From Nymphaea colorata (lineage: Eukaryota > Streptophyta > Magnoliopsida > Nymphaeales > Nymphaeaceae): a DNA stretch of 64,000 bases. This document shows, in pieces, positions 15,960 to 61,098 of this stretch; within the stretch, counting starts at the first letter, position 1; the number at the start of each line of letters is the position of its first letter. Both the position numbers and the translations under genes were made by a program. Location of the stretch: contig NC_045146.1 in the NCBI RefSeq assembly GCF_008831285.2, positions 25,114,755 through 25,178,754 on the forward strand, written 5' to 3'. The notes beneath the pieces are model-generated. The model did no database searches. It was not told the origin of the DNA and saw nothing but the letters and a program-made list of their open reading frames with translations.

Positions 15960-16936
15960 TCTTGTTTGAATATGCATCTTATTTCCATTCTCAGTTGTGA
16001 GTTGTGGCCAGGAAGTCAACACCGAAATAGTCAGCATCTTCTCAGACACCCCCCATATAGTCTTTCTCGTCTTAATGTTCCTCATTTCTCCTTCTCCTTG
16101 CTCCTTAGGCAGCGGCTTTCAAGGAAAGGTAAAAGCTCATAATCTAAGCCTGAATTATCGCTGATTAGAGTAACCCGGCAACAGTTTATGTTGGACTTTC
16201 TAGCTCATGCCATTCAAGATCTAACGCTCATAATTGAGGATAAAAATTAGGCAGCCCTTGTTGACCATGACATCAGTCTATACTCTATAGACCATGTGGC
16301 CTCAAAATTTGCCAGAAACCAAACAAGGGAAACCTAAAAGCCAACCCTTAGAAAACACCCACTAACCTACGAACTGCAATTCTCAGTATATTAATCACTT
16401 ACTTCTGAACAAATTCCAAGATACATGCAGTCAAGGTCAACTTGGGATCTTGCACTAAATGCATCGTTACAACCATAAACCAATATACTGGTATACATCA
16501 CATGGAGACCTTGCCATTCTAAAGTGCAGTTTGAAAATGAGCTTCAGAAAAAATACTGAATTGCCTTTGGCGGCAGCAGATGCAGCCCAGAAATCACAAT
16601 GAAAGACATTTTGAATTCTGTTATCCACAAGAAACACACAATTTACTATCTCTGGTTGAAACTAGGACATGAACATGAATTAGAAACATTGAGCACGGCA
16701 ACAATGGGGAACGAAAAAAGACAAACAAAAACAAAGCCCCCTTCTAGTAATATTGGCTTGGTGAATGGGTAAAGAAGCCCAGCCATGGAGAAAATGCCAA
16801 AAGGAGGATGGCAATAACACAAACATGACAAAAATTGAGCAATTTTAGTACAAATTGATGCAAACAGAAAAAGAAGAAAGCTGCAAAGCGTAGAATTATA
16901 TCTTCAGACTTTATATGGCCTTTCCCAACATGTTCG
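15960..16936. repeat. Segment Z, copy 1 (lead-in of block 1)
   Basis: 15960-16832 is nearly identical to 43097-44036, with a few indels (copy 2 has extra bases near 43130-43230). In this copy Z runs on continuously into unit 1; in copy 2 it is joined to unit sequence equivalent to 18358, so copy 2 lost about 1.5 kb. No coding sequence recognised. Confidence 0.9.
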
Positions 16937-19900
16937 ACATGTTTTTCTGTATGTCCGTCAATCTTGGTTAAAAGGTAAAGAGCTGATACCAAAACTGAGG
17001 GCTTTTTTACTCCATTGAAGATTTTTCAAAAACCAGCAATCTAAAATTTTTGAATAATTTTTGGTATCTATTTCAGATTTTCAAATCAGCACAAATTTTC
17101 TAGAAAACTAGAACAGAATAGTAGTCCTTGAAGACAATTTGTTTTCCTATTGAACGAAATATCTTAAAAATTAGTAAAAAACGTGGAAAAATAAAAAAAG
17201 CCATACTAATACGCAAAAGATGATATGAACACAAAATATTTCTACTCTATTATACTTGCAAAGAAGATGAGGATGCAACACTCAAGTACACAGGGCAGAA
17301 AGGCAGAAATAACATGAAAAACAAATGTAAAGTATGTAGCAAAGAAGGATACCATCTATTCAATCACTACCGAAAAAGCAAGAAAAGTTTGACAAGTGAG
17401 TTAAAACAACAGAGAAGTGACCCCTATGCACACTAACTAGTAGAAAGCAAAACATAACAATAAAGCAAATTCAATTGAATATCTATCGTAAAACGAAACT
17501 TACTCTATTATTTGTGAAGTCACTACAAGAGTTTAAACATCAAAGAGAATAAAAAACCACATGAAAAGATATAAATCAACATTCAACGATTCCTTCCTTC
17601 AAATTGAGGGTAATTTCTTCCATTGTTGAATGCAATATCTTCAATGCTCCACAAATGTTAGTCAAAACTTAAAACCCATAAGAAAAAAAACAAATTCTAT
17701 ACAATATTCAACAAATTTATATTAAAAAAAACATGCAAAATGGTTTCCTATGACACAATAACGCGAAAGGGTAAAAAGATGAAAAAAATTTACACACAAC
17801 AACGAGAAAAGAGGATGTCCAAAATTGACTAATAAGACCGTAAGACTGTCATGAACCTCGATGTCCAAAATTAACAAAATGTATCTCATTTTGAAGCCAA
17901 AGTGTCCAAGAAAATAATCCATTTTATAAATCTCAAACATAACTTTGGGATCAAAAGTTCCAGCAATTCAGAAACATGGTTCCCCAATTGTCCTATTTTG
18001 TTTCGACAACAATGTTGCAGAAAGGCAGGGTTTGGAAGAAACTGAAGAAACTGACTTCGACTCATTAAATCTACCCTAAAATTCACCAAATTTGATCAAA
18101 ACAAAACTGAGTAGAAAAAGCTTTTGAATTGATATAGAAATTGCTTCCCAATCTTAGGTCAAAGGAAAGGAGGCAAAATTCAAACAAGAGACGGTTCACG
18201 ATGGTATAGAAACTAACCAACTATAAAACTTGAAAACCAAACCCATCAAAGGCACTATTAGACAATTCAACTTGGCAAAGCACAATACTCAGAATCTCAT
18301 ATCAATAAAAAATCTGAACTATCTTAAACTAAAAAACAGACTTTCAAAACCAGCAACACCTTAAGAACATAAATACATACATAAGTTCAGTGAACAAGTG
18401 ATGAAAATTTAATTATAATGCTGGGAATCTTAACTATCAAACACAAAAAAGTGAGAAAACAAATCAAAAATTAATATGTTTGCAAAATAATTCAGCTAAC
18501 TTGGTTCAGGCCTTTTAGAAATACAATCAATAAGCATATGCTCTAACTTCTGACAATCCTAGGACAGACCAACAAACCCATGAAATCAGTACCAAGGTTT
18601 AACAACTCCAACATTCGCAGTTCTTCTGAAACATACCTCTACATAGCTAGGGCATGTGCAACTTAGATACATGGTTTTACAAAGAATCAAATGCTCAATG
18701 AAAAGAACACGACAGTTAACAATCAAACAAGAACTACTATAACTAAGATTCAAACAAGCATGGAACCACAACAACTACTTTAACCCTTGTCCCTACTATG
18801 CTAGACTATACACAATAAGTACTCTAGTCAACTTACTCACTACAGAAAACTGACTGAAACAAAGCATGGCCATAGATAAATATTGAACATGGGTCTCAAA
18901 GACTAAAGACTCTAAACCAGGTTGACACTCAACAATAAGACCAAACCTCAACTAAAATGACTTAAAGAGAAGTAGTATTGCCTCGAATACTCACCAATTA
19001 GGAATATAGCAAAAGACGTCAACTTTTCTTTTCAAAGCATTGAACTTTGAAATGGCTTCTTATTTTCAAATTTTTGCCCATAGGCTTTTAGTGCACGTTG
19101 TGTGCAAAAGATATAACCTTCCTTTGCCTGAAGTATTCGATGAAGTACTAGGATTTGGAATCGCGTCGATGCTACCAAATCTCGCAAAGGGATTTCCTTC
19201 CATTTTCAAGGTATGAGCATGAAGAAATTGTTCTCTGCTTCACAGGAAACCAAAGAAAAGGAGCAGATATTAACCTCAAATCATTCACCCACAAAGGATT
19301 CGCAATCAATGCTAGAGACTTCAGCCTTCATGTTCTTCATCCCTTGGCAGGCACTTTTTTTGTTCTTGCTTTCTTTTGTATTTGTTTTTCTTTTTCTTTT
19401 TCTTGCTTTTTTCTTCTTCTTCTTTTTTTGCTTGTCTTCTTTCTTGTTTTGATTTTTTTTTTTTTTAGGCCGACCTTCACCTTTGAGGGAAATACCTCAC
19501 CACCCCAAAGGCTACTACAGAACGCCATCTCTTTGATGGTTTTGTGTAGCATTGTCACGTGTCATACCCACTTCAACTCGTGAGTTTCAACGAGACAAAA
19601 TGTTCATAGGTTGTTATCTTCGTGGAATATACATAAATCACCTTTATGCATACCCAGTACTCTCGATTAATAACCCAGAGGAACAACTACACTCGTTCCG
19701 AGCCCATCTCTCAACACTCATTTTGCTACCTGCCAAGGTTTCAAAGAACGCTCGGTCTTCCACCTCATCGCACTTTCATGTTTGATTCTTGCAGATGTTT
19801 GATTGCAAAGGCGAATAGCATTTCCTAATCCTTGAGCTCCTCGACATCACTGAACCCATCTTCATAGCTCACACAAAGAATCTTTCCAGTCTTCTCCTTC

Positions 19901-20432
19901 AATTGACTGACAGCAAGGGCTTGAAACTTCCTCTTTTACCCTCAAAGGAATACCTAAGACAAAGCGAAGGTACATCCTAGTGCAGCAAAATTGCTTTTCA
20001 AAATAGTAGGTTTACTAAAAATTCTTGACGTCAAGCGATATATTGCCTAGATTGTTTTCCCTTTTCCTTCAAAAAGAGTACATTTATAAAACCAAGTGAC
20101 CTATGGTTGGAAGTAGAAAAATGACTAGGGTGGTTTTTGCAAACTAAACATCACAAGAAATCATTCCCCTTGGAACTCCCCTAAAAAATATAGGACTTTG
20201 TGAAGGAAGGGTCCATATGGAAGAGATATAACACACTAGGAATGAAAAACAAGACAGTTCAATCCTCTCAACCTAATCAGCAGCAGCAAGATGCAATCTA
20301 CTTGTTGTCAAAATAATTGTCACAGCAATTGGTAATGACGCAGATCTTCAAACAAGTCAACAACTAATTCAGAATCAACCAAAAAAATTTATAGCAGCAG
20401 ACCGTCTCATTTTTTTCTTTGAAAAAGAAGCC

Positions 20433-20665
20433 CTAACTAAACAAATCACACTTAGCCAAGCTATGATACCATCTGAATATCTCACAAACAGGCAAATCTA
20501 TCACACTTCTGAATCGCAAAATTAATTTTCTAAGAATCTCATAAAATAGCTCTTTAAGAGCTTGATCAGCCAATAAACGGAAAACAACATGAGCTGTTGG
20601 GATCTCCAACAACTTGAAACACAGTCGTTGCAGAGCCCTCAGCTCTCTACAGCTAAGATATTCAG
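20433..20665 (-). other. Candidate terminal exon in unit 1, family unknown
   Basis: After an acceptor (CTTTCTCAG) the minus strand is open for 76 codons to a stop at 20433-20435. The peptide is helical and protein-like, with phrases SCRELRALQRLCFKLLEIP and VFRLLADQALKELFYEILRK. Identical-length copies exist at 51412-51644 (unit 3) and 59407-59639 (unit 4). In unit 2 (28576-28779) a 29-base loss shifts the frame. No family was recognised. Conservation among copies reflects recent duplication, not selection. Confidence 0.35.
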
Positions 20666-23217
20666 CTGAGAAAGCAGAAAATTAGAAAAAAAAAAAAAAA
20701 AAGATTACAAAGATTAGAAAATAAAAAATAAGAGATTACACAGCAAAAAAAAAAAAAAAAAAACATAGTAGATTTCATCTACAGTGAAAATATATTCAGT
20801 GTTTCGTAGCAATATTTGAAAATCATGTCCACCACAATAACCTTTTTCATCCACTTTTGGCACAGATCAAGACTCATTTAACCAATCCCTTGGCATTCCA
20901 ATGCAGAAGAACTCGTACGAATGAATACACACAGAAATAGAAAATAACATAACTGGATTGGAAAACAATCGATGATCACATGATGATTACATACATATAT
21001 GTTCACTCACTTTAACAACGACAAGAAAAAAATTAATATTGATTGTTAAATAATTCTGCCTCAAAGAATAACATGAAAAAAGGGAAGTTAAAGAACTAAA
21101 TTTCCTGAGAATACACTTATGAAAACTAATGACAGACTTAACGTACTCCATTGTGAATGAAATACAAAAAGAAAAAAGAAAAAGTGTTGTTGAAGCCTAA
21201 AAAAACAAAGTGTACATGCACACAAGAATTTCATCAAACTAACTTGAGGACTAGCACATTGAAGACAACAAATGAGTAAGAGAGACGGGAAAAAGATAAC
21301 ATACAAGAGCTGCGTTGGCCATGGCAGACGCAGAGCCCTAGCCAAAGAAAGAGAGAAGAGGATGTTTCAAAGACCTCATATGAGAACACCGACCAGCGAA
21401 TAGGGCTGGACCGCCTTCGTTCCGCAGGTCAGCGCTGTAAATCAGAGACAAAGAATGAGTGTCTAAGCAGAGAAAGGCGTTTCGTGTGGGCCATGGCCTA
21501 CTCAGATCAGCGAGAGAAAGGGAGAGGGAGTGGAGAACGAAGGTTCAGTGCATACCTTGAAGAAGAGAGGGAGCTCGGAGGTGGCATTGCAGTTGAAGAA
21601 GAAGACGGGAGACGCAGCCTGCGGTTGAGAGCTTTAATCGAGAGGAAAGGGAGAGGAGTGTTTCATCGAGAGGGACCTTGGAAGTTTGTCTGGATTTACA
21701 TTTTAAGGAAAGCAAATTACCATGGCCGTTGGGTTAACATTTTGGGTTTCTTAAATTGATTTCCTTCCTTTCCATTAATGAATAACACGGATAGTCTTTT
21801 TAAGATTACTTTGGAAAATTTTGGACTTATCTTGTTGCTTACGGTTTACCATAAAAGTCAAGTTCGATTTTATTTGAACTCTCTCTCCATTTCTCTCGTC
21901 TAAAAGCTGTGGCTACCTATATCGATAGGGATCTCTACAAGAGAAGACCAATATCAATATGATTGTCACTTAAAAAGATCGGCTTTTGGAAACTAGAAAA
22001 AAGAGCCTTATTTTATTTGTTCAGATTACCTAAATTTGGATCTAGAACGTGGAATCTAGAAAATAGATACGGTAGAATGAACTGAGTTGCAACAAAGCTC
22101 GCACCTGTAGGCGATCGAAAGCCTCGTCTAATATTAGATCCATTCCTCTCGCCTCGTGTTTGTGTTCGTATCCTACATTGAACTCAAATATCATTTAGGG
22201 ATTTTAAACGGCAAAGTTTAGTTTTGCTTGGAGTATAATATGGGCAAACTTTAAAATCTCAAGAAAATCTCAATAAATTTTAAAAAATAAAATTGTAAAA
22301 GTAAACTACGGAAAACATGAAAACAAAATCTTTACAACAAAAAATGCAAAGGTAAAGTGTAAAATCTCAGGAAAATCTTGGCAAATTGCGAAAATAAATC
22401 TTAAAAAGTAAAATGCAAAAAATACAAAAATAAATTTTTAATAATAGAAATGCGAGAAACGATGGACCCTCATGGCCGAGAAATTATAGAAAGCAGATTT
22501 GGGAGATAATTTAGTCTTGCCTGGACATAATTTAGTCTTACCAATATTACCCCTTGTTAAAATTTTGAGATTATAGCTTGGTCCCAAAAATGAAAAATTC
22601 CTAAATGCATTTCTTCTTTTCAATCTCCTTTTGTACCTCAAAGAAACAGCGCGGTCAGACCCAATTTTTACAATCCCAAGATGACATTTATGGGGAACAA
22701 GAGAAGACTACTAAAACATTGAGGTTTCCCCAAGGAATCTGCCAGTGTGCTCCGTGCTCTTGTTACTCGCTGTGAGCATTCAAGCGACTGTTCTGTCAAC
22801 GGATCGTTCACTGTGTGCGTTGTTTGAAATATGGAAAATGCAACCTTGGGAAGACTATAGAAGCAGCACTCATGAATCAATAATTGAGAAAAGCACGTGT
22901 TGTCTAAGCTATAGCCCCCCTCAAACCAGCATGCAAACAGGTCTAGTATGGAATGAGACTCAAATTGGGTGCGTAAATGGCAGCCTGCCCACACTTTCTT
23001 GTCCATGATTTTATCTCAAGAAAACTGCAATAGGTGAAAATACAAGTGGTTTCAGCTACCTACTAAGTTGCTGATGAACCATAACAGTTTCTATTCCTCT
23101 GCTGCTCCTATTTAGTGATGTATGCAGCTGAGGCATCCTAAACAGTCCATGACTCCTGTAGAATGGAAAAAACACCAGCTGCTTAGAAAGGAAAAAAGAA
23201 GGGAATCAACGCATCAC

Positions 23218-23417
23218 CTTGCCAACATGCGAAGCTGCAACAAAGCCTACTTTGTTCATCTCATTTACAACCATAGTTGAGATTCTCCCACCGAATTTTG
23301 ATGATACTGAACCCCTTCCCGGACCCTGGTTAGTGAATCGGTGATGTCTGAACATCGCATCAAGTGCTTTCAAACCATTGCTAGCGGAATGGTCATCCTT
23401 CGTGAAGTGAGACTCAC
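23218..23417 (-). other. Candidate internal exon in segment Y, family unknown
   Basis: A 200-base minus-strand segment bounded by a good acceptor (TTTGATTAATAG) and donor (GGCAAG|GTGATG). It is open throughout in one frame with clearly protein-like content: HFTKDDHSASNGLKALDAMF, then RHHRFTNQGPGRGSVSSKFG, then GRISTMVVNEMNKVGFVAAS. It is duplicated at 54064-54263. I could not assign a family. It and the helical candidate exon at 20433 may belong to one minus-strand gene now present only as pieces. Confidence 0.4.
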
Positions 23418-24866
23418 CTATTAATCAAAGCAAAGCAAATCTTGCTCTCCTGTTAGGTCTACATCTTGCACATGACCTTGTCCAATCTTCCAACAACATC
23501 AATATGATTAGTATATCTGTCATGAAGTACTTGAAGCTATACAAAACCAAGTCATAAGGCAAAACAGCCTGCAGCTAAGATCAAACTTTGGAGGGAAAAT
23601 TCTAAGTGATTGAAACAGACACTGAAAACTAGTATCCAATTCATTTTACACAAGGCACAGTGATTGTTGTCTAGATTCAAAGCAAGACCATTTCAGCTAA
23701 GACTTTCAAGTGTCAAACTGATCTTGTGAACAGCACAGGCAACTGAAACAACCATAATGAAAAGTTACTTCAATCTTGATCGACCAAGTTGCATTTTCTT
23801 CAAGCATCATTCTTGGATTTTGGTTCATCATAACAGTTCCCACAGAAAAGTATCTACAAGAAAGGGCAACCGTTCTTGGATTTTGGTGGTTTGGTTGCCC
23901 ACCATTTAATGAAGAATGGATCAGGTTCAATGCACACTTTTGGTCAATCAACTTCTTAGAATTCAGATTATTATGCAGTTGTTCATATAGGATGCGACTT
24001 ACAATCTAAGGACAAGAAAATTAGGAGTGAAGCTTGATTCATCCACGCACCTATTGAATGACATTCTCTCACTATTTTTTCTTTTGAGCACAGTTTTTAC
24101 ATCAAAATAAATTGGTTTAAGAATTTATTTTTAGGTCTAAAGAAGATCTTTGTAAAAGAGCTCAAACAAATGATTTTCTGTCCAAAAGTCCTTTTCCTGC
24201 TTAGAAGCCTGTTTTTTTGCCCGATTTCATAGTTCCTTATTATCCCCAAAATGGGAACCTTGAATCGGACTTGGTTTTTGCTGTTTCCGAAAACCTGCTG
24301 ATTGGAAGCAAGCACTACCTGGTGGCTGTTGCCAAGGCGAGGAAAATCCCAAAACCTGCTTATTCCTCTGAATTTGAATGCCCACAAAGAAGTAAAATCT
24401 CTGTAATCAACACAAAACACACCTTAATCCGAATGGACCTGACCCATCCCCTTGAAACCCCTCAACCTCGCCATACTCAACAGCCTCTCTCCCCAAGTAC
24501 TAAATCAAAACCAAAACTAGCAAGACCGACAGACCCCCATCCCCAAACAGGCAAGTCTAGGTGCTCAACAACCCATGAAGCTGGTGGAAGAACATGCCAC
24601 ACCATTTGGGATCCACCAACCTCACCTTAAGGGCCTTGAAGACAAAGGCCAAACGTATGGGGGTGGGATTGATGCTAGCCCAGGACCAATCCAAGCCATG
24701 GATCATACTAACCTCTTAAAACCCGTAGAATCCAACCCCAACATATGTCTGCCACTTCATTTCTTAACTTAGAGACTTATCTAGCAGTGCTAATTGTAGA
24801 ACAGGTATTATCATTTTAACACACCATTCATGCAGCTAAATCCAAAATTAGTATACTGCCATACAA

Positions 24867-27800
24867 CATGTTTTTCTGTATGTCCGTCAATCTTGGTTAA
24901 AAGGTAAAGAGCTGATACCAAAACTGAGGGCTTTTTTACTCCATTGAAGATTTTCCAAAAACCAGCAATCTAAAATTTTTGAATAATTTTTGGTATCTAT
25001 TTCAGATTTTCAAATCGGCACAAATTTTCTAGAAAACTAGAACAGAATAGTAGTCCTTGAAGACAATTTGTTTTCCTAATGAAAGAAATATCTTAAAAAT
25101 TAGTAAAAAACGTGGGAAAATAAAAAAAGCCATACTAATACGCAAAAGATGATATGAACACAAAATATTTCTACTCTATTATACTTGCAAAGAAGATGAG
25201 GATGCAACACTCAAGTACACAGGGCAGAAAGGCAGAAATAACATGAAAAACAAATGTAAAGTATGTAGCAAAGAAGGATACCATCTATTCAATCACTACC
25301 GAAAAAGCAAGAAAAGTTTGACAAGTGAGTTAAGACAACAGAGAAGTGACTCCTATGCACACTAACTAGTTAAGAATCAATATTTACTAAATAAAAGAAA
25401 GCAAAACATAACAATAAAGCAAATTCAATTGAATATCTATTGTAAAACATGCCACTCGTGGCCAATGGTGCCAAAAACTTGGTGTGACCTTATGGCTAAG
25501 GATTTTTAAAATGATATTTTGCAACAAGAGACACAAAAATGTGGCCACCAAAGTTTCCAAAACTGAACTCCCACTAGGGCAAGAATGACATCCAAACGAA
25601 ACTTACTCTATTATTTGTGAAGTCACTACAAGAGTTTAAACATCAAAGAGAATAAAAAACCACATGAAAAGAAATAAATCAACATTCAACGATTCCTTCC
25701 TTCAAATTGAGGGTAATTTCTTCCATTGTTGAATGCAATATCTTCAATGCTCCACAAATGTTAGTCAAAACTTAAAACCCATAAGAAAAAAAACAAATTC
25801 TATACAATATTCAACAAATTTATATAAAAAAAAAAACATGCAAAATGGTTTCCTATGACACAATAACGTGAAAGGGTAAAAAGATGAAAAATTTACACAC
25901 AACAACGAGAAAAGAGGATGTCCAAAATTGACTAATAAGACCGTAAGACTGTCATGAACCTCGTTGGAGAGAATTCTGTAAAATAAATATTAGGAAAAGC
26001 AAATGACCTCCAAAATTAACAAAATGTATCTCATTTTGAAGCCAAAGTGTCCAAGAAAATAATCCATTTTATAAATCTCAAACATAACTTTGGGACCAAA
26101 AGTTCCAGCAATTCAGAAACATGGTTCCCCAATTGTCCTATTTTGTTTCGACAACAATGTTGCAGAAAGGCAGGGTTTGGAAGAAACTGAAGAAACTGAC
26201 TTCGACTCATTAAATCTACCCTAAAATTCACCAAATTTGATCAAAACAAAACTGAGTAGAAAAAGCTTTTGAATTGATATAGAAATTGCTTCCCAATCTT
26301 AGGTCAAAGGAAAGGAGGCAAAATTCAAACAAGAGACGGTTCACGATGGTATAGAAACTAACCAACTATAAAACTTGAAAACCAAACCCATCAAAGGCAC
26401 TATTAGACAATTCAACTTGGCAAAGCACAATACTCAGAATCTCATATCAATAAAAAATCTGAACTATCTTAAACTAAAAAACAGACTATCAAAACCAGCA
26501 ACACCTTAAGAACATAAATACATACATAAGTTCAGTGAACAAGTGATGAAAATTTAATTATAATGCTGGGAATCTTAACTATCAAACACAAAAAAGTGAG
26601 AAAACAAATCAAAAATTAATATGTTTGCAAAATAATTCAGCTAACTTGGTTCAGGCCTTTTAGAAATACAATCAATAAGCATATGCTCTAACTTCTGACA
26701 ATCCTAGGACAGACCAACAAACCCATGAAATCAGTACCAAGGTTTAACAACTCTAACATTCGCAGTTCTTCTGAAACATACCTCTACATAGCTAGCGCAT
26801 GTGCAACTTAGATACATGGTTTTACAAAGAATCAAATGCTCAATGAAAAGAACACGACAGTTAACAATCAAACAAGAACTACTATAACTAAGATTCAAAC
26901 AAGCATGGAACCACAACAACTACTTTAACCCTTGTCCCTACTATGCTAGACTATACACAATAAGTACTCTAGTCAACTTACTCACTACAGAAAACTGACT
27001 CAAACAAAGCATGGCCATAGATAAATATTGAACATGGGTCTCAAAGACTAAAGACTCTAAACCAGGTTGACACTCAACAATAAGACCAAACCGCAACTAA
27101 AATGACTTAAAGAGAAGTAGTATTGCCTCGAATACTCACCAATTAGGAATATAGCAAAAGACGTCAAGTTTTCTTTTCAAAGCATTGAACTTTGAAATGG
27201 CTTCTTATTTTCAAATTTTTGCCCATAGGCTTTTAGTGCACGTTGTGTGCAAAAGATATAACCTTCCTTTGCCTGAAGTATTCGATGAAGTACTAGGATT
27301 TGGAATCGCGTCGATGCTACCAAATCTCGCAAAAGGATTTCCTTCCATTTTCAAGGTATGAGCATGAAGAAATTGTTCTCTGCTTCACAGGAAACCAAAG
27401 AAAAGGAGCAGATATTAACCTCAAATCATTCACCCACAAAGGATTCGCAATCAATGCTAGAGACTTCAGCCTTCATGTTCTTCATCCCTTGGCAGGCACT
27501 TTTTTTGTTCTTGCTTTCTTTTGTATTTGTTTTTCTTTTTCTTTTTCTTGCTTTTTTCTTCTTCTTTTTTTTTGCTTGTCTTCTTTGTTGTTTTGATTTT
27601 TTTTTTTTTTAGGCCGACCTTCACCTTTGAGGGAAATACCTCACCACCTCAAAGGCTACTACAGAACGCCATCTCTTTGATGGTTTTGTGTAGCATTGTC
27701 ACGTGTCATACCCACTTCAACTCGTGAGTTTCAACGAGACAAAATGTTCATAGGTTGTTATCTTCGTGGAATATACATAAATCACCTTTATGCATACCCA

Positions 27801-29902
27801 GTACTCTCGATTAATAACCCAGAGAAACAACTACACTCGTCCCGAGCCCATCTCTCAACACTCATTTTGCTACCTGCCAAGGTTTCAAAGAACGCTCGGG
27901 CTTCCACCTCATCGCACTTTCATGTTTGATTCTTGCAGATGTTTGATTGCAAAGGCGAATAGCATTTCCTAATCCTTGAGCTCCTCGACATCACTGAACC
28001 CATCTTCATATCTCACACAAAGAATCTTTCCAGTCTTCTCCTTCAATTGACTGACAGCAAGGGCTTGAAACTTCCTCTTTTACCCTCAAAGGAATACCTA
28101 AGACAAAGCGAAGGTACATCCTAGTGCAGCAAAATTGCTTTTCAAAATAGTAGGTTTACTAAAAATTCTTGACGTCAAGCGATATATTGCGTAGATTGTT
28201 TTTCCTTTTCCTTCAAAAAGAGTACCTTTATAAAACCAAGTGACCTATGGTTGAAAGTAGAAAAATGACTAGGATGGTTTTTGCAAACTAAACATCACAA
28301 GAAATCATTCCCATTGGAACTCCCCTAAAAAATATAGGACTTTGTGAAGGAAGGGTCCATATGGAAGAGATATAACACACTAGGAATGAAAAACAAGACA
28401 GTTCAATCCTCTCAACCTAATCAGGAGCAGCAAGATGCAATCTACTTGTTGTCAAAATAATTGTCACAGCAATTGGTAATGACGCAGATCTTCAAACAAG
28501 TCAACAACTAATTCAGAATCAACAAAAAAATTTATAGCAGCAGACCGTCTCATTTTTTTCTTTGAAAAAGAAGCCCTAACTAAACAAATCACACTTAGCC
28601 AAGCTATGATACCATCTGAATATCTCACAAACAGGCAAATCTATCACACTTCTGAATCGCAAAATTAATTTTCTAAGAATCTCATAAAATAGCTCTTTAA
28701 GAGCTTGATCAGCCAATAAACGGAAAACAACATGAGCTGTTGGGATCTCCACTCGGCTCTCTACAGCTAAGATATTCAGCTGAGAAAGCAGAAAATTAGA
28801 AAAAAAAAAAAGATTACAAAGATTAGAAAATAAAAAATAAGAGATTACACAAAGCAAAAAAAAAAAAAAAAACATAATGCTGACTTCCTAACATAGTAGA
28901 TTTCATCTACAGTGAAAATATATTCAGTGTTTCGTAGCAATATTTGAAAATCACGTCCACCACAATAACCTTTTTCATCCACTTTTGGCACAGATCAAGA
29001 CTCATTTAACCAATCCCTTGGCATTCCAATGCAGAAGAACTCGTACGAATGAATACACACAGAAATAGAAAATAACATAACTGGATTGGAAAACAATCGA
29101 TGATCACATGATGATTACATACATATATGTTCACTCACTTTAACAACGACAAGAAAAAAATTAATATTGATTGTTAAATAATTCTGCCTCAAAGAATAAC
29201 ATGAAAAAAGGGAAGTTAAAGAACTAAATTTCCTGAGAATACACTTATGAAAACTAATGACAGACTTAACGTACTCCATTGTGAATGAAATACAAAAAGA
29301 AAAAAGAAAAAGTGTTGTTGAAGCCTAAAAAAACAAAGTGTACATGCACACAAGAATTTCATCAAACTAACTTGAGGACTAGCACATTGAAGACAACAAA
29401 TGAGTAAGAGAGACGGGAAAAAGATAACATACAAGAGCTGCGTTGGCCATGGCAGACGCAGAGCCCTAGCCAAAGAAAGAGAGAAGAGGATGTTTCAAAG
29501 ACCTCATATGAGAACACCGACCAGCGAATAGGGCTGGACCGCCTTCGTTCCGCAGGTCAGCGCTGTAAATCAGAGACAAAGAATGAGTGTCTAAGCAGAG
29601 AAAGGCGTTTCGTGTGGGCCATGGCCTACTCAGATCAGCGAGAGAAAGGGAGAGGGAGTGGAGAACGAAGGTTCAGTGCATACCTTGAAGAAGAGAGGGA
29701 GCTCGGAGGTGGCATTGCAGTTGAAGAAGAAGACGGGAGACGCAGCCTGCGGTTGAGAGCTTTAATCGAGAGGAAAGGGAGAGGAGTGTTTCATCGAGAG
29801 GGACCTTGGAAGTTTGTCTGGATTTACATTTTAAGGAAAGCAAATTACCATGACCGTTGGGTTAACATTTTGGGTTTCTTAAATTGATTTCCTTCCTTTC
29901 CA
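24867..29902. repeat. Large repeat unit 2 (truncated)
   Basis: Head-to-tail with unit 1. It stops at 29902 ('ctttccatt' then 'caacatgag'), where unit 1 continues 'ctttccattaatgaataac'. Relative to unit 1 it carries insertions shared with unit 4: about 155 bases at 25445-25600, and the 'ttggagagaattctg' block near 25965. It has its own 29-base deletion in the candidate exon near 28750. Confidence 0.9.
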
Positions 29903-29976
29903 TTCAACATGAGAAGATCATTTAGAATTAAACAAAAATAGAAACATATTAGCAGCTGGCAAATCAGGGATCTAAC

Positions 29977-30972: not shown

Positions 30973-31064
30973 GAAGCAAAAAGGGGGAAATAAAACAAAA
31001 GGTATAATCTCTGCACTAAAACAAAGTACAACTATCCTTTCGTTGTTTAGTTTGAAAAAGATCC

Positions 31065-39232: not shown

Positions 39233-39266
<34 letters not shown>

Positions 39267-49587: not shown

Positions 49588-49867
49588 AATATGTTGCTGT
49601 GGGAACCGGATCCATTCCTGGACCCGGTTCTATGGGGCGCGGGTACCGAGGCGGGCTCGGTACCCTAGGCGGCTTCTCCTCTCTCCCTCTTTATATTGTC
49701 ACTTGTGTTTAGTGTTGAATTAAGTGAAATAAAATTCTCTCTCTCCTAGGGTTGCGGTGTGCCCCTAGGTCAGAGCCTCCCCGTGGTTTTTCACCTCTTT
49801 CTGAGGTTTTCCACGTAGATTGTGTGTTCGTTCTCCACTCTCTCTTTTTGTGGTTCGTGTTTCTACA
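49582..49867 (+). repeat. 3' LTR
   Basis: 286 bp, identical to the 5' LTR except for A at the single variant position, which turns AATATA into AATAAA at 49728-49733. The first six bases include the polyprotein stop codon. Confidence 0.97.
49728..49733 (+). terminator. AATAAA polyadenylation signal in the 3' LTR only
   Basis: The canonical AATAAA exists only in this LTR; the 5' LTR has AATATA at the same place. It lies about 40 bases after the LTR TATA-like box, a plausible position for 3'-end formation of the element's RNA. Confidence 0.5.
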
Positions 49868-49872
49868 GGTCT
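49868..49872. repeat. Target-site duplication, right (GGTCT)
   Basis: Right copy of the 5-bp GGTCT duplication; unit 3 sequence resumes with 'caaagactaaagactc'. Confidence 0.97.
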
Positions 49873-51411
49873 CAAAGACTAAAGACTCTAAACCAGGTTG
49901 ACACTCAACAATAAGACCAAACATCAACTAAAATGACTTAAAGAGAAGTAGTATTGCCTCGAATACTCACCAATTAGGAATATAGCAAAAGACGTCAAGT
50001 TTTCTTTTCAAAGAATTGAACTTTGAAATGGCTTCTTATTTTCAAATTTTTGCCCATAGTGCACGTTGTGTGCAAAAGATACAACCTTCCTTTGCCTGTT
50101 CGATGAAGTACTAGGATTTGGAATCGCGTCGATGCTATCAAATCTCGCAAAGGGATTTCCTTCCATTTTCAAGGTATGAGCAAGAAGAAATTGTTCTCTG
50201 CTTCATAGGAAACCAAAGAAAAGGAGCAGATATTAACCTTAAATCATTCACCCACAAAGGATTTGCAATCAATGCTAGAGACTTCAGCCTTCATGTTCTT
50301 CATCCCTTGGCAGACACTTTTTTTGTTCTTGCTTTCTTTTGTATTTGTTTTTCTTTTTCTTTCTTTTGTATTTGTTTTTCTTTTTCTTTTTCTTGCTTTT
50401 TTTTTTTTGCTTGTCTTCTTTGTTGTTTTGATTTTTTTTTTTAGGCCGACCTTCACCTTTGAGGGAAATACCTCACCACCCCAAAGGCTACTACAGAACG
50501 CCATCTCTTTGATGGTTTTGTGTAGCAACTAGTGAGTTTCAACGAGACAAAATGTTCATAAGTTGTTATCTTCGTAGAATATACATAAATCACCTTTATG
50601 CATACCCATTACTCTCGATTACTAACCCAGAGGAACAACTACACTCGCCCCGAGCCCATCTCTCAACACTCATTTTGCTACCTGCCAAGGTTTCAAAGAA
50701 CGCTCGGGCTTCCACCTCATCGCACTTTCATGTTTGATTCTTGCAGATGTTTGATTGCAAAAGGCGAATAGCATTTCCTAATCCTTGAGCTCCTCGACAT
50801 CACTGAACCCATCTTCATAGCTCACACAAAGAATCTTTCCAGTCTTCTCCTTCAATTGACTGACAGCAAGGGCTTGAAACTTCCTCTTTTACCCTCAAAG
50901 GAATACCTAAGACAAAGCGAAGGTACACCCTAGTGCAGCAAAATTGCTTTTCAAAATAGTAGGTTTACTAAAAATTCTTGACGTCAAGTGATATATTGCC
51001 TAGATTGTTTTCCCTTTTCCTTCAAAAAGAGTACATTTATAAAACCAAGTGACCTATGGTTGGAAGTAGAAAAATGACTAGGGTGGTTTTTGCAAACTAA
51101 ACATCACAAGAAATCATTCCCCTTGGAACTCCCCTAAAAAATATAGGACTTTGTGAAGGAAGGGTCCATATGGAAGAGATATAACACACTAGGAATGAAA
51201 AACAAGACAGTTCAATCCTCTCAACCTAATCAGCAGCAGCAAGATGCAATCTACTTGTTGTCAAAATAATTGTCACAGCAATTGGTAATGCGTCATTGTC
51301 ACAGCAATTGGTAATGACGCAGATCTTCAAACAAGTCAACAACTAATTCAGAATCAACCAAAAAAATTTATAGCAGCAGACCGTCTCATTTTTTTCTTTG
51401 AAAAAGAAGCC

Positions 51412-51644
51412 CTAACTAAACAAATCACACTTAGCCAAGCTATGATACCATCTGAATATCTCACAAACAGGCAAATCTATCACACTTCTGAATCGCAAAA
51501 TTAATTTTCTAAGAATCTCATAAAATAGCTCTTTAAGAGCTTGATCAGCCAATAAACGGAAAACAACATGAGCTGTTGGGATCTCCAACAACTTGAAACA
51601 CAGTCGTTGCAGAGCCCTCAGCTCTCTACAGCTAAGATATTCAG
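51412..51644 (-). other. Candidate terminal exon, unit 3 copy
   Basis: Full-length copy of the 76-codon helical candidate exon seen at 20433-20665, with the same acceptor and stop. Family unknown. Confidence 0.35.
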
Positions 51645-54063
51645 CTGAGAAAGCAGAAAATTAGAAAAAAAAAAAAAAGATTACAAAGATTAGAAAATAA
51701 AAAATAAGAGATTACACAGCAAAAAAAAAAAAAAAAAAAAAAACATAGTAGATTTCATCTACAGTGAAAATATATTCAGTGTTTCGTAGCAATATTTGAA
51801 AATCATGTCCACCACAATAACCTTTTTCATCCACTTTTGGCACAGATCAAGACTCATTTAACCAATCCCTTGGCATTCCAATGCAGAAGAACTCGTACGA
51901 ATGAATACACACACAAATAGAAAATAACATAACTGGATTGGAAAACAATCGATGATCACATGATGATTACATACATATATGTTCACTCACTTTAACAACG
52001 ACAAGAAAAAAATTAATATTGATTGTTAAATAATTCTGCCTCAAAGAATAACATGAAAAAAGGGAAGTTAAAGAACTAAATTTCCTGAGAATACACTTAT
52101 GAAAACTAATGACAGACTTAACGTACTCCATTGTGAATGAAATACAAAAAGAAAAAAGAAAAAGTGTTGTTGAAGCCTAAAAAAACAAAGTGTACATGCA
52201 CACAAAAATTTCATCAAACTAACTTGAGGACTAGCACATTGAAGACAACAAATGAGTAAGAGAGACGGGAAAAAGATAACATACAAGAGCTGCGTTGGCC
52301 ATGGCAGACGCAGAGCCCTAGCCAAAGAAAGAGAGAAGAGGATGTTTCAAAGACCTCATATGAGAACACCGACCAGCGAATAGGGCTGGACCGCCTTCGT
52401 TCCGCAGGTCAGCGCTGTAAATCAGAGACAAAGAATGAGTGTCTAAGCAGAGAAAGGCGTTTCGTGTGGGCCATGGCCTACTCAGATCAGCGAGAGAAAG
52501 GGATAGGGAGTGGAGAACGAAGGTTCAGTGCATACCTTGAAGAAGAGAGGGAGCTCGGAGGTGGCAGTGCAGTTGAAGAAGAAGACGGGAGACGCAGCCT
52601 GCGGTTGAGAGCTTTAATCGAGAGGAAAGGGAGAGGAGTGTTTCATCGAGAGGGACCTTGGAAGTTTGTCTGGATTTACATTTTAAGGAAAGCAAATTAC
52701 CATGACCGTTGGGTTAACATTTTGGGTTTCTTAAATTGATTTCCTTCCTTTCCATTAATGAATAACACGGATAGTCTTTTTAAGATTACTTTGGAAAATT
52801 TTGGACTTATCTTGTTGCTTACGGTTTACCATAAAAGTCAAGTTCGATTTTATTTGAACTCTCTCTCCATTTCTCTCGTCTAAAAGCTGTGGCTACCTAT
52901 ATCGATAGGGATCTCTACAAGAGAAGACCAATATCAATATGATTGTCACTTAAAAAGATCGGCTTTTGGAAACTAGAAAAAAGAGCCTTATTTTATTTGT
53001 TCAGATTACCTAAATTTGGATCTAGAACGTGGAATCTAGAAAATAGATACGGTAGAATGAACTGCGTTGCAACAAAGCTCGCACTATGGGCAAACTTTAA
53101 AATCTCAAGAAAATCTCAATAAATTTTAAAAAATAAAATTGTAAAAGTAAACTACGGAAAACATGAAAACAAAATCTTTACAACAAAAAATGCAAAGGTA
53201 AAGTGTAAAATCTCAGGAAAATCTTGGCAAATTGCGAAAATAAATCTTAAAAAGTAAAATGCAAAAAATACAAAAATAAATTTTTAATAATAGAAATGCG
53301 AGAAACGATGGACCCTCATGGCCGAGAAATTATAGAAAGCAGATTTGGGAGATAATTTAGTCTTGCCTGGACATAATTTAGTCTTACCAATATTACCCCT
53401 TGATAAAATTTTGAGATTATAGCTTGGTCCCAAAAATGAAAAATTCCTAAATGCATTTCTTCTTTTCAATCTCCTTTTGTACCTCAAAGAAACAGCGCGG
53501 TCAGACCCAATTTTTACAATCCCAAGATGACATTTATGGGGAACAAGAGAAGACTACTAAAACATTGAGGTTTCCCCAAGGAATCTGCCAGTGTGCTCCG
53601 TGCTCTTGTTACTCGCTGTGAGCATTCAAGCGACTGTTCTGTCAACGGATCGTTCACTGTGTGCGTTGTTTGAAATATGGAAAATGCAACCTTGGGAAGA
53701 CTATAGAAGCAGCACTCATGAATCAATAATTGAGAAAAGCACGTGTTGTCTAAGCTATAGCCCCCCTCAAACCAGCATGCAAACAGGTCTAGTATGGAAT
53801 GAGACTCAAATTGGGTGCGTAAATGGCAGCCTGCCCACACTTTCTTGTCCATGATTTTATCTCAAGAAAACTGCAATAGGTGAAAATACAAGTGGTTTCA
53901 GCTACCTACTAAGTTGCTGATGAACCATAACAGTTTCTATTCCTCTGCTGCTCCTATTTAGTGATGTATGCAGCTGAGGCATCCTAAACAGTCCATGACT
54001 CCTGTAGAATGGAAAAAACACCAGCTGCTTAGAAAGGAAAAAAGAAGGGAATCAACGCATCAC

Positions 54064-54263
54064 CTTGCCAACATGCGAAGCTGCAACAAAGCCTACTTTG
54101 TTCATCTCATTTACAACCATAGTTGAGATTCTCCCACCGAATTTTGATGATACTGAACCCCTTCCCGGACCCTGGTTAGTGAATCGGTGATGTCTGAACA
54201 TCGCATCAAGTGCTTTCAAACCATTGCTAGCGGAATGGTCATCCTTCGTGAAGTGAGACTCAC
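54064..54263 (-). other. Candidate internal exon, second Y copy
   Basis: Copy of the 200-base exon-like segment at 23218-23417 with identical splice borders and reading frame. Family unknown. Confidence 0.4.
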
Positions 54264-55712
54264 CTATTAATCAAAGCAAAGCAAATCTTGCTCTCCTGTT
54301 AGGTCTACATCTTGCACATGACCTTGTCCAATCTTCCAACAACATCAATATGATTAGTATATCTGTCATGAAGTACTTGAAGCTATACAAAACCAAGTCA
54401 TAAGGCAAAACAGCCTGCAGCTAAGATCAAACTTTGGAGGGAAAATTCTAAGTGATTGAAACAGACACTGAAAACTAGTATCCAATTCATTTTACACAAG
54501 GCACAGTGATTGTTGTCTAGATTCAAAGCAAGACCATTTCAGCTAAGACTTTCAAGTGTCAAACTGATCTTGTGAACAGCACAGGCAACTGAAACAACCA
54601 TAATGAAAAGTTACTTCAATCTTGATCGACCAAGTTGCATTTTCTTCAAGCATCATTCTTGGATTTTGGTTCATCATAACAGTTCCCACAGAAAAGTATC
54701 TACAAGAAAGGGCAACCGTTCTTGGATTTTGGTGGTTTGGTTGCCCACCATTTAATGAAGAATGGATCAGGTTCAATGCACACTTTTGGTCAATCAACTT
54801 CTTAGAATTCAGATTATTATGCAGTTGTTCATATAGGATGCGACTTACAATCTAAGGACAAGAAAATTAGGAGTGAAGCTTGATTCATCCACGCACCTAT
54901 TGAATGACATTCTCTCACTATTTTTTCTTTTGAGCACAGTTTTTACATCAAAATAAATTGGTTTAAGAATTTATTTTTAGGTCTAAAGAAGATCTTTGTA
55001 AAAGAGCTCAAACAAATGATTTTCTGTCCAAAAGTCCTTTTCCTGCTTAGAAGCCTGTTTTTTTGCCCGATTTCATAGTTCCTTATTATCCCCAAAATGG
55101 GAACCTTGAATCGGACTTGGTTTTTGCTGTTTCCGAAAACCTGCTGATTGGAAGCAAGCACTACCTGGTGGCTGTTGCCAAGGCGAGGAAAATCCCAAAA
55201 CCTGCTTATTCCTCTGAATTTGAATGCCCACAAAGAAGTAAAATCTCTGTAATCAACACAAAACACACCTTAATCCGAATGGACCTGACCCATCCCCTTG
55301 AAACCCCTCAACCTCGCCATACTCAACAGCCTCTCTCCCCAAGTACTAAATCAAAACCAAAACTAGCAAGACCGACAGACCCCCATCCCCAAACAGGCAA
55401 GTCTAGGTGCTCAACAACCCATGAAGCTGGTGGAAGAACATGCCACACCATTTGGGATCCACCAACCTCACCTTAAGGGCCTTGAAGACAAAGGCCAAAC
55501 GTATGGGGGTGGGATTGATGCTAGCCCAGGACCAATCCAAGCCATGGATCATACTAACCTCTTAAAACCCGTAGAATCCAACCCCAACATATGTCTGCCA
55601 CTTCATTTCTTAACTTAGAGACTTATCTAGCAGTGCTAATTGTAGAACAGGTATTATCATTTTAACACACCATTCATGCAGCTAAATCCAAAATTAGTAT
55701 ACTGCCATACAA

Positions 55713-58700
55713 CATGTTTTTCTGTATGTCCGTCAATCTTGGTTAAAAGGTAAAGAGCTGATACCAAAACTGAGGGCTTTTTTACTCCATTGAAGATTTT
55801 CCAAAAACCAGCAATCTAAAATTTTTGAATAATTTTTGGTATCTATTTCAGATTTTCAAATCGGCACAAATTTTCTAGAAAACTAGAACAGAATAGTAGT
55901 CCTTGAAGACAATTTGTTTTCCTAATGAAAGAAATATCTTAAAAATTAGTAAAAAACGTGGGAAAATAAAAAAAGCCATACTAATACGCAAAAGATGATA
56001 TGAACACAAAATATTTCTACTCTATTATACTTGCAAAGAAGATGAGGATGCAACACTCAAGTACACAGGGCAGAAAGGCAGAAATAACATGAAAAACAAA
56101 TGTAAAGTATGTAGCAAAGAAGGATACCATCTATTCAATCACTACCGAAAAAGCAAGAAAAGTTTGACAAGTGAGTTAAGACAACAGAGAAGTGACTCCT
56201 ATGCACACTAACTAGTTAAGAATCAATATTTACTAAATAAAAGAAAGCAAAACATAACAATAAAGCAAATTCAATTGAATATCTATTGTAAAACATGCCA
56301 CTCGTGGCCAATGGTGCCAAAAACTTGGTGTGACCTTATGGCTAAGGATTTTTAAAATGATATTTTGCAACAAGAGACACAAAAATGTGGCCACCAAAGT
56401 TTCCAAAACTGAACTCCCACTAGGGCAAGAATGACATCCAAACGAAACTTACTCTATTATTTGTGAAGTCACTACAAGAGTTTAAACATCAAAGAGAATA
56501 AAAAACCACATGAAAAGAAATAAATCAACATTCAACGATTCCTTCCTTCAAATTGAGGGTAATTTCTTCCATTGTTGAATGCAATATCTTCAATGCTCCA
56601 CAAATGTTAGTCAAAACTTAAAACCCATAAGAAAAAAAACAAATTCTATACAATATTCAACAAATTTATATAAAAAAAAACATGCAAATGGTTTCCTATG
56701 ACACAATAACGTGAAAGGGTAAAAAGATGAAAAAATTTTACACAACAACGAGAAAAGAGGATGTCCAAAATTGACTAATAAGACCGTAAGACTGTCATGA
56801 ACCTCGTTGGAGAGAATTCTGTAAAATAAATATTAGGAAAAGCAAATGACCTCCAAAATTAACAAAATGTATCTCATTTGAAGCCAAAGTGTCCAAGAAA
56901 ATAATCCATTTTATAAATCTCAAACATAACTTTGGGACCAAAAGTTCCAGCAATTCAGAAACATGGTTCCCCAATTGTCCTATTTTGTTTCGACAACAAT
57001 GTTGCAGAAAGGCAGGGTTTGGAAGAAACTGACTTCGACTCATTAAATCTACCCTAAAATTCACCAAATTTGATCAAAACAAAACTGAGTAGAAAAAGCT
57101 TTTGAATTGATATAGAAATTGCTTCCCAATCTTAGGTCAAAGGAAAGGAGGCAAAATTCAAACAAGAGACGGTTCACGATGGTATAGAAACTAACCAACT
57201 ATAAAACTTGAAAACCAAACCCATCAAAGGCACTATTAGACAATTCAACTTGGCAAAGCACAATACTCAGAATCTCATATCAATAAAAAATCTGAACTAT
57301 CTTAAACTAAAAAACAGACTTTCAAAACCAGCAACACCTTAAGAACATAAATACATACATAAGTTCAGTGAACAAGTGATGAAAATTTAATTATAATGCC
57401 GGGAATCTTAACTATCAAACACAAAAAAGTGAGAAAACAAATCAAAAATTAATATGTTTGCAAAATAATTCAGCTAACTTGGTTCAGGCCTTTTAGAAAT
57501 ACAATCAATAAGCATATGCTCTAACTTCTGACAATCCTAGGACAGACCAACAAACCCATGAAATCAGTACCAAGGTTTAACAACTCCAACATTCGCAGTT
57601 CTTCTGAAACATACCTCTACATAGCTAGGGCATGTGCAACTTAGATACATGGTTTTACAAAGAATCAAATGCTCAATGAAAAGAACACGACAGTTAACAA
57701 TCAAACAAGAACTACTATAACTAAGATTCAAACAAGCATGGAACCACAACAACTACTTTAACCCTTGTCCCTACTATGCTAGACTATACACAATAAGTAC
57801 TCTAGTCAACTTACTCACTACAGAAAACTGACTCAAACAAAGCATGGCCATAGATAAATATTGAACATGGGTCTCAAAGACTAAAGACTCTAAACCAGGT
57901 TGACACTCAACAATAAGACCAAACCTCAACTAAAATGACTTAAAGAGAAGTAGTATTGCTCGAATACTCACCAATTAGGAATATAGCAAAAGACGTCAAC
58001 TTTTCTTTTCAAAGCATTGAACTTTGAAATGGCTTCTTATTTTCAAATTTTGCCCATAGGCTTTTAGTGCACGTTGTGTGCAAAAGATATAACCTTCCTT
58101 TGCCTGAAGTATTCGATGAAGTACTAGGATTTGGAATCGCGTCGATGCTACCAAATCTCGCAAAGGGATTTCCTTCCATTTTCAAGGTATGAGCATGAAG
58201 AAATTGTTCTCTGCTTCACAGGAAACCAAAGAAAAGGAGCAGATATTAACCTCAAATCATTCACCCACAAAGGATTCGCAATCAATGCTAGAGACTTCAG
58301 CCTTCATGTTCTTCATCCCTTGGCAGGCACTTTTTTTGTTCTTGCTTTCTTTTGTATTTGTTTTTCTTTTTCTTTTTCTTGCTTTTTTCTTCTTCTTCTT
58401 TTTTTGCTTGTCTTCTTTCTTGTTTTGATTTTTTTTTTTTTTTAGGCCGACCTTCACCTTTGAGGGAAATACCTCACCACCCCAAAGGCTACTACAGAAC
58501 GCCATCTCTTTGATGGTTTTGTGTAGCATTGTCACGTGTCATACCCACTTCAACTCGTGAGTTTCAACGAGACAAAATGTTCATAGGTTGTTATCTTCGT
58601 GGAATATACATAAATCACCTTTATGCATACCCAGTACTCTCGATTAATAACCCAGAGGAACAACTACACTCGTTCCGAGCCCATCTCTCAACACTCATTT

Positions 58701-61098
58701 TGCTACCTGCCAAGGTTTCAAAGAACGCTCGGTCTTCCACCTCATCGCACTTTCATGTTTGATTCTTGCAGATGTTTGATTGCAAAGGCGAATAGCATTT
58801 CCTAATCCTTGAGCTCCTCGACATCACTGAACCCATCTTCATAGCTCACACAAAGAATCTTTCCAGTCTTCTCCTTCAATTGACTGACAGCAAGGGCTTG
58901 AAACTTCCTCTTTTACCCTCAAAGGAATACCTAAGACAAAGCGAAGGTACATCCTAGTGCAGCAAAATTGCCTTTTCAAAATAGTAGGTTTACTAAAAAT
59001 TCTTGACGTCAAGCGATATATTGCCTAGATTGTTTTCCCTTTTCCTTCAAAAAGAGTACATTTATAAAACCAAGTGACCTATGGTTGGAAGTAGAAAATG
59101 ACTAGGGTGGTTTTTGCAAACTAACATCAACAAGAAATCATTCCCCTTGGAACTCCCCTAAAAAATATAGGACTTTGTGAAGGAAGGGTCCATATGGAAG
59201 AGATATAACACACTAGGAATGAAAAACAAGACAGTTCAATCCTCTCAACCTAATCAGCAGCAGCAAGATGCAATCTACTTGTTGTCAAATAATTGTCACA
59301 GCAATTGGTAATGACGCAGATCTTCAAACAAGTCAACAACTAATTCAAATCAACCAAAAAATTTATAGCAGCAGACCGTCTCATTTTTTTCTTTGAAAAA
59401 GAAGCCCTAACTAAACAAATCACACTTAGCCAAGCTATGATACCATCTGAATATCTCACAAACAGGCAAATCTATCACACTTCTGAATCGCAAAATTAAT
59501 TTTCTAAGAATCTCATAAAATAGCTCTTTAAGAGCTTGATCAGCCAATAAACGGAAAACAACATGAGCTGTTGGGATCTCCAACAACTTGAAACACAGTC
59601 GTTGCAGAGCCCTCAGCTCTCTACAGCTAAGATATTCAGCTGAGAAAGCAGAAAATTAGAAAAAAAAAAAAAAAGATTACAAAGATTAGAAAATAAAAAA
59701 TAAGAGATTACACAGCAAAAAAAAAAAAAAAACATAGTAGATTTCATCTACAGTGAAAATATATTCAGTGTTTCGTAGCAATATTTGAAAATCATGTCCA
59801 CCACAATAACCTTTTTCATCCACTTTTGGCACAGATCAAGACTCATTTAACCAATCCCTTGGCATTCCAATGCAGAAGAACTCGTACGAATGAATACACA
59901 CAGAAATAGAAAATAACATAACTGGATTGGAAAACAATCGATGATCACATGATGATTACATACATATATGTTCACTCACTTTAACAACGACAAGAAAAAA
60001 ATTAATATTGATTGTTAAATAATTCTGCCTCAAAGAATAACATGAAAAAAGGGAAGTTAAAGAACTAAATTTCCTGAGAATACACTTATGAAAACTAATG
60101 ACAGACTTAACGTACTCCATTGTGAATGAAATACAAAAAGAAAAAAGAAAAAGTGTTGTTGAAGCCTAAAAAAACAAAGTGTACATGCACACAAGAATTT
60201 CATCAAACTAACTTGAGGACTAGCACATTGAAGACAACAAATGAGTAAGAGAGACGGGAAAAAGATAACATACAAGAGCTGCGTTGGCCATGGCAGACGC
60301 AGAGCCCTAGCCAAAGAAAGAGAGAAGAGGATGTTTCAAAGACCTCATATGAGAACACCGACCAGCGAATAGGGCTGGACCGCCTTCGTTCCGCAGGTCA
60401 GCGCTGTAAATCAGAGACAAAGAATGAGTGTCTAAGCAGAGAAAGGCGTTTCGTGTGGGCCATGGCCTACTCAGATCAGCGAGAGAAAGGGAGAGGGAGT
60501 GGAGAACGAAGGTTCAGTGCATACCTTGAAGAAGAGAGGGAGCTCGGAGGTGGCATTGCAGTTGAAGAAGAAGACGGGAGACGCAGCCTGCGGTTGAGAG
60601 CTTTAATCGAGAGGAAAGGGAGAGGAGTGTTTCATCGAGAGGGACCTTGGAAGTTTGTCTGGATTTACATTTTAAGGAAAGCAAATTACCATGACCGTTG
60701 GGTTAACATTTTGGGTTTCTTAAATTGATTTCCTTCCTTTCCATTAATGAATAACACGGATAGTCTTTTTAAGATTACTTTGGAAAATTTTGGACTTATC
60801 TTGTTGCTTACGGTTTACCATAAAAGTCAAGTTCGATTTTATTTGAACTCTCTCTCCATTTCTCTCGTCTAAAAGCTGTGGCTACCTATATCGATAGGGA
60901 TCTCTACAAGAGAAGACCAATATCAATATGATTGTCACTTAAAAAGATCGGCTTTTGGAAACTAGAAAAAAGAGCCATATTACCTTATTTTATTTGTTCA
61001 GATTACCTAAATTTGGATCTAGAACGTGGAATCTAGAAAATAGATACGGTAGAATGAACGGAGTTGCAACAAAGCTCGCACCTGTAGGCGATCGAAAG
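55713..61098. repeat. Large repeat unit 4 (truncated, mosaic)
   Basis: Follows unit 3 head-to-tail at the same junction as units 1/2 ('catgtttttctgtatgtccg'). It ends at 'gcgatcgaaagcct', then joins W copy 2. Left of about 56937 it carries unit 2 variants; from about 57317 on it mostly carries unit 1 variants. It also shows many private one-base indels between 57950 and 59370. The candidate exon copy at 59407-59639 is full length. Confidence 0.92.

Follow-up and report, generated by a model that had tools for sequence, protein, structure and literature searches.

Two near-identical stretches of DNA lie in direct orientation at the end of sequence C9 of a genome assembly (408 Mb, 783 contigs), and they raise the question of whether they stem from one copying event or from repeated exchange between many copies. 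The window analysed here is the terminal 64 kb of C9; its right part, positions 11628-64000 (~52 kb), is a contig of its own behind a gap of 100 Ns and holds the whole repeat. According to the original prediction, a tandem pair of a ~7.9-kb unit, preceded by a lead-in called Z, formed once and was then copied as a block, recently, about 27 kb away. Judged from the sequences compared below, this prediction was largely right as an observation and only partly right as a history. The right 52 kb is quite probably one contig of a multi-level tandem macro-array, reshuffled by unequal recombination and conversion.

Organisation of the repeat

Self-comparison of the window, as had been proposed, confirmed two near-identical direct blocks. 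Positions 22239-29904 match 53085-60745 at 98.6%, 17864-22124 match 56852-61101 at 99.1%, and Z at 16081-16830 matches 43285-44036 at 96.7%; no off-diagonal match appeared in any of five windows randomised by a first-order Markov model that kept the dinucleotide composition. The boundaries predicted at 24.8, 44.0 and 55.7 kb are correct and fall at 24866, 44034 and 55712. The features of the array contig, with the gap in front of it, are as follows:

11528..11627, no strand: 100-N scaffold gap; the array contig starts at 11628
11628..14797, + strand: segment A, a dispersed-repeat copy at the left edge of macro-units, adjoining the satellite; copies of 84-98% on C3, C5, C9 and C12
15268..15712, + strand: partial unit end, matching 23940-24410 at 93.2%
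16081..16830, + strand: Z, from sequence matches probably a piece of a longer ancestral unit
16937..24865, + strand: unit 1 (U1), the sole full unit in the window, delimited by self-comparison
24866..29904, + strand: unit 2 (U2), left part only
29902..31735, + strand: dispersed-repeat piece lying where U2 meets the flank; a lipin (LNS2) exon captured in it occupies 29977-30111 on the - strand
31736..35266, + strand: flank nearest to C3:16.5035-16.507 Mb, bearing the defensin gene
33329-33398 (exon 1) and 34001-34179 (exon 2), within the preceding + strand flank: predicted two-exon defensin gene, apparently complete, splice sites inferred by eye
35640..43284, + strand: flank with pieces matching C9:11.368-11.371 and 11.391-11.395 Mb
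43285..44036, + strand: Z', with 18/745 differences from Z
44034..53084, + strand: left part of unit 3 (U3-left), which has diverged more than any other unit copy of the array and is interrupted by a Copia element
44556-49867, + strand: Copia LTR retrotransposon in U3, with LTRs of ~0.29 kb, target duplication GGTCT and an open frame at 44920-49584
53085..55711, + strand: unit right part, with 1/2628 difference from U1
55712..61101, + strand: unit 4 (U4), left part only
61102..63506, + strand: tail, also in contigs C29, C453 and C200 and, from 61522, at C9:24.953 Mb
63507..64000, + strand: first part of the 230-bp satellite, reaching the end of both the contig and C9

Each predicted pair consists of one unit and the left part of another. 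The unit does repeat at the places given for copies 1-2 and 3-4, but only U1 is full, U2 and U4 being left parts and U3 both truncated and split by the Copia element; in U3 the initial 1.4 kb of the unit is missing, as are 135 bp at 53084/53085. The junctions 1/2 and 3/4 are indeed alike, with 521 bases identical, and this junction has two exact copies in C29 and one in C453, the latter overlapping the window's own. Z precedes each pair as described, but it is not free-standing. Diverged relatives of the array occur at C9:11.365-11.395 Mb and C3:16.503-16.513 Mb, and at both loci Z-like sequence sits among unit pieces, which suggests that Z is part of a longer unit and was lost from internal units; this would explain its appearance as a lead-in. 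The array is wider than the predicted extent (15960-61098): it reaches the window's right edge and goes on in three further contigs. Positions 42441-43098, before Z', also match 61124-61867 in the tail.

Six-frame Pfam searches gave no family in the region of segment A (11628-15902) or in that of U1 (15901-24902), neither a defensin nor another domain being found in the latter, and two matches only in 29901-43302, the defensin and the lipin exon. Rfam searches at the gathering threshold gave no match in the window, C29 or C453. When eight open frames were searched for domains, Copia domains were found in one and the other matches were at chance level. The Copia element is ~5.3 kb long, with LTRs, a 5-bp target duplication and an integrase before the reverse transcriptase. 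Its two LTRs are nearly identical (2 mismatches and 1 gap in 294 columns; 1/282 away from gaps), which makes the insertion a young one. It is seen in one unit only, plus C453's copy of that unit, so that no amplification together with the array is apparent.

The captured lipin exon has copies of 95-98% on C1, C9 and C11. The stretch around it, 29902-31735, was considered as a whole transposon insertion, and this was rejected, as the copies on C1, C9 and C11 extend the match further left. Because of this leftward extension, and because no long terminal inverted repeat was seen at this element in the window or in the C11 copy, we treat it as a dispersed-repeat piece.

The macro-repeat beyond the window

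Three small contigs carry the same DNA as the array, C29 (45.1 kb), C453 (33.6 kb) and C200 (24.5 kb), and together with the array contig they overlap in one path of four. C200 runs from a unit end through the tail, 9.3 kb of satellite, A and Z to a unit start, and its positions 18399-24521 match window 11628-17738 over 6.1 kb with 0 BLAST mismatches and 24 gap openings (6/5865 differences in a global alignment masked around gaps). C453 repeats window 44232-64000 over 19.8 kb, with 2 BLAST mismatches and 53 gap openings (11/19173 in the masked alignment); it holds the Copia-bearing copy, followed by 7.3 kb of satellite and by A and Z of the next macro-unit. It overlaps C29 by 14.4 kb with 7 BLAST mismatches and 77 gap openings, or 4/6676 and 4/6783 masked differences in two stretches. 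The masked global alignment gives more differences than BLAST in two of these three overlap pairs. C29 itself starts with satellite, A and Z, continues with two full units and a third of which only the left part is present, all in plain tandem, and closes with tail and satellite. The order tail, satellite, A is present in C200, in C453 and at C9:24.953-24.969 Mb. The overlaps would join true neighbours rather than alleles, although they could alternatively be alleles or assembler duplicates.

Three levels of repetition can be recognised. The first is the 230-bp satellite, with 26 copies in C29:1194-7197 and a longer period of ~0.9 kb in its self-matches. The second is the 8.1-kb unit, apparently non-coding, which is arranged head to tail with a period of 7.9-8.1 kb in the window and C29. 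The third is a macro-repeat of 38-64 kb, made of A, Z, the tandem units, the tail and 7-9 kb of satellite, of which at least two appear to stand in a row. From satellite to satellite it spans 38.0 kb in C29 and ~64 kb in the window copy if C200 is the left neighbour. Satellite related to the 230-bp repeat also occurs at C5:23802924-23804900 and C336:11238-18038.

A 23.2-kb segment distinguishes two macro-units

Between Z and the satellite, C29 follows the window in the same order save in one place, where the window has 23.2 kb (29905-53084) and C29 has 462 bp, identical to U1. C29:13200-27054 matches window 16050-29904 and C29:27517-38456 matches 53085-64000, with 76/13602 differences away from gaps in the left arm and 17/10180 in the right. 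The 23.2-kb segment contains Z', the Copia-split U3-left and the apparently complete defensin gene. Because C29 has only 462 bp in its place, the predicted second pair has to be reinterpreted: it is, on this alignment, U2-left, the 23.2-kb segment, a unit right part and then U4.

The pieces of the segment differ in their divergence from the relatives on C3 and C9, which points to a patchwork. The flank at 31.7-34.2 kb differs from C3 by 0.89% substitutions and that at 34.2-35.3 kb by 2.18%, whereas the unit adjoining the flank differs from C3 by 5.6-10.5%. Since the 31.7-34.2-kb flank is far closer to C3 than is the adjoining unit, a later arrival of this flank is suggested. Divergence from C9:11.37-11.39 Mb is 0.6-1.4% in three pieces within 35.8-43.5 kb, compared with 3.4% in U1's left half and 1.9% in part of the right half of U1.

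The segment would have been either gained in the window copy or lost from C29. Fixing the direction as a loss yields a variant of the macro-array explanation, possible though doubtful, in which C29 derives from a window-type macro-unit with two old blocks and lost 22.7 kb, with the defensin gene, through recombination between U2 and U3. At C3:16.51 Mb the 31.7-35.3-kb flank follows immediately on a unit end, and this order of unit and then flank looks old, as the variant would have it. However, C29:27000-27560 matches U1 21722-22282 at 100% over 561 bp, an intact stretch that C29 keeps and that is now absent from U2 and U3, and the suggested later arrival of the 31.7-34.2-kb flank also speaks against a loss.

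Divergence of the copies and exchange between them

In the left half of the unit, compared with sites masked around gaps, U1 and U4 differ at 6/2483 sites, U1 and U3 at 25/2483, and U2 and U4 at 21/2178. The tree of this half places U3 outside the eight other rows with support of 95/95, one of these eight, C453_U4, being probably the window's U4 again; the Z and first unit of C200, which overlap the window's own, were left out as independent copies. At several left-half sites U3 agrees with the outgroup (C9:11.37 Mb), and the other copies have another base in common. Furthermore, a four-gamete test on 8 copies with 19 informative sites found 85 of 171 site pairs incompatible and a minimum of 3 exchanges, so that these copies show the exchange that marks a tandem array under concerted evolution. 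A further mark is the level of divergence, 0-36 of 2143-2483 left-half sites differing within the array and 70-83 of 2004-2039 between the array and the C9:11.37 Mb relative: array copies are more alike than they are to that relative.

The 5' segment of the unit tells first units from internal ones. Each of two macro-units opens with a unit, U1 in one and C29a in the other, and these two differ at 6/1947 sites, which supports the predicted nested duplication at more than one scale, with larger blocks copied. Both differ from the internal units by 14-21 sites, the internal units differing among themselves by 0-7. Because U1 and C29a are close and the internal units differ from both, macro-units appear to have been duplicated and their internal units then reshuffled.

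A single, recent copying of the tandem pair and Z as a block 27 kb away is, on these data, an unlikely history. It accounts for the identical unit junction and the order Z-unit-unit in both blocks, and for the 13/634 differences between the tail after U4 and the sequence before Z', as expected of an old 27-kb tandem block. It also leads one to expect U1 to be closest to U3 and U2 to U4. In the 5' segment U2 is indeed nearer to U4 (7/2159) than U1 is (16/1943), but U4 has still closer relatives in C29b and C29c (2 differences); a forced U2+U4 clade gave a p-AU of 0.074, which is not a significant rejection. The right part agrees as well, U1 and U3 differing at 1/2628 sites, but this part is almost invariant (0-2/2628 among five copies) and cannot discriminate between models. 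At C9:11.37 Mb the order is unit, right part, Z, unit, and on that order an older relative of the pair does exist, though with Z between the two. Against a block copy, U3-left lies outside the other copies and a forced U1+U3 clade is rejected (p-AU 0.0068), Z' is as far from Z as 18/745 (C29's Z differs from Z at 11/750), C29 has plain tandem units without a block spacer or the 23.2-kb segment, block 2 lacks the flank of 31.7-42.4 kb, and the initial 1.4 kb of the unit is missing from U3. Nor does near identity imply a recent event, as had been argued: the mosaic sites point to homogenisation and not to a copy date, and since the near identity probably reflects homogenisation by recombination or conversion, it dates no block copy.

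That the assembler produced the second block as a false duplicate is very improbable: the contig adjoins a scaffold gap at the end of C9 and itself looks misplaced, and redundancy exists in the near-identical overlapping contigs C453 (2 BLAST mismatches in 19.8 kb) and C200, but the blocks differ by the Copia insertion with its target duplication, by absences of 135 bp and 1.4 kb and by 25/2483 masked substitutions, and a separate contig, C453, also bears the Copia-containing copy.

The reshuffled macro-array remains our preferred reading, with recombination as its putative cause. Misaligned pairing of long near-identical copies would allow unequal crossing over and gene conversion, which would alter copy number and homogenise stretches of units. 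Insertions would make the macro-units different from one another, among them the Copia element, the dispersed-repeat piece and the 23-kb defensin-bearing segment. The locus may serve as a worked case in which near identity of repeat blocks more likely stems from homogenisation than from recent copying, and in which a history read from one contig alone misleads.

Position of the array in the assembly

Positions 1-11527 are probably not the true neighbour of the array contig, because C200 goes on leftward into satellite past the point that corresponds to 11628. If the overlaps are true, the contig 11628-64000 starts and stops within the array, and it would adjoin neither a chromosome end nor the sequence before the 100-N gap. 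A telomere motif of two repeats was not found in the window, in C29 or C453, in the 20 kb left of the window or at C9:11.365-11.385 Mb; in the genome, telomere-type runs of TTTAGGG number at least 22 forward and at least 5926 reverse, and these runs, together with the Copia element and the defensin gene, speak for a plant genome. Whole-genome searches scored only the best candidates, and copy counts are lower bounds for this reason. The contig left of the gap (1-11527 and 20 kb leftward), which stops at this scaffold gap, carries a direct duplication of its own, with a period of ~18.2 kb and 6983 bp at 97.9%.

Another gap of 100 Ns on C9 offers a better place. To its right, from C9:24,953,281, the sequence starts with tail, satellite and A, and the array ends near 24,968,900. 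To the left of this gap, at 24,953,181, a related satellite subtype extends over at least 5.2 kb, ~80% identical to the array's satellite and 93% to that at C5:23.80 Mb. Satellite or tail is present on either side of the gap, which anchors the array weakly because the satellite on the left is another subtype. The array probably belongs at this gap, ~173 kb left of the contig's present place and beside two defensin genes, and a likely contig misplacement in a chromosome-scale assembly is marked in this way.

The defensin gene

Plant defensin (gamma-thionin) genes occur in clusters. The predicted gene in the 23.2-kb segment has a signal-peptide exon, an intron and an 8-cysteine gamma-thionin domain, exon 1 with its signal peptide and the cysteines being read by eye. 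Exon 2 matches Pfam PF00304 (gamma-thionin; E 1.1e-13) and defensins in the PDB, and is by eye identical to its counterpart on C3. Gamma-thionin matches number at least 20 in the genome, and two of them, at C9:24,976,251 and 24,986,478, lie 7-18 kb right of the array edge at C9:24.969 Mb. With one defensin inside the window macro-unit and two more beside this edge, the locus resembles a plant defensin cluster, but unlike in such clusters the repeated unit itself holds neither a defensin nor another domain (U1, Pfam). Among five loci of the unit family, picked for the longest unit matches, the array and C3:16.51 Mb each hold a defensin, C9:11.37 Mb has one ~130-160 kb away, and none was found near C2:24.03 Mb or C6:13.84 Mb.

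These positions prompt a speculative and rather improbable idea, that the satellite-bearing macro-array drives recombination next to a defensin cluster: out-of-register exchange of 8.1-kb units would add or remove the 23-kb segment with its intact defensin gene, and the number of defensin genes would differ between haplotypes. Should the defensin-bearing segment prove variable, the array could feed presence/absence variation of an antimicrobial peptide gene.

Comparison with other arrays

The locus can be described as a nested, apparently homogenised tandem array of an already known general kind in an incomplete assembly. Among the literature matches listed, no title describes this array. In wheat, tandem repeats of 1242-2726 bp are reported to have been left in unassigned scaffolds (PMC6567227). 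The present array is similar in that long tandem units are not integrated in pseudomolecules and end in separate contigs, and it differs in its 8.1-kb unit, nested in satellite-bearing macro-units of 38-64 kb whose insertions differ from one to the next. In tomato, segmental duplication and recombination are reported to have spread an rDNA-spacer-derived satellite array bearing an LTR retrotransposon (PMC2679016). Here too an array carries an inserted LTR retrotransposon and points to segmental duplication and recombination; unlike the tomato satellite, it has no Rfam match (window, C29, C453), and the Copia element is found in one unit and in C453's copy.

Other multi-kb arrays are present in the genome on C10 (4.07 kb, 99.9%), C7 (5.94 kb, 99.0%) and C2 (~2.26-2.34 kb, 99.5-99.7%); the sequence that they have in common with this array consists of short pieces of 73-93% only. 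An open frame of 160 aa at C2:1366001-1372000, which we take to resemble a DUF538 protein, adjoins sequences similar to the unit right part.
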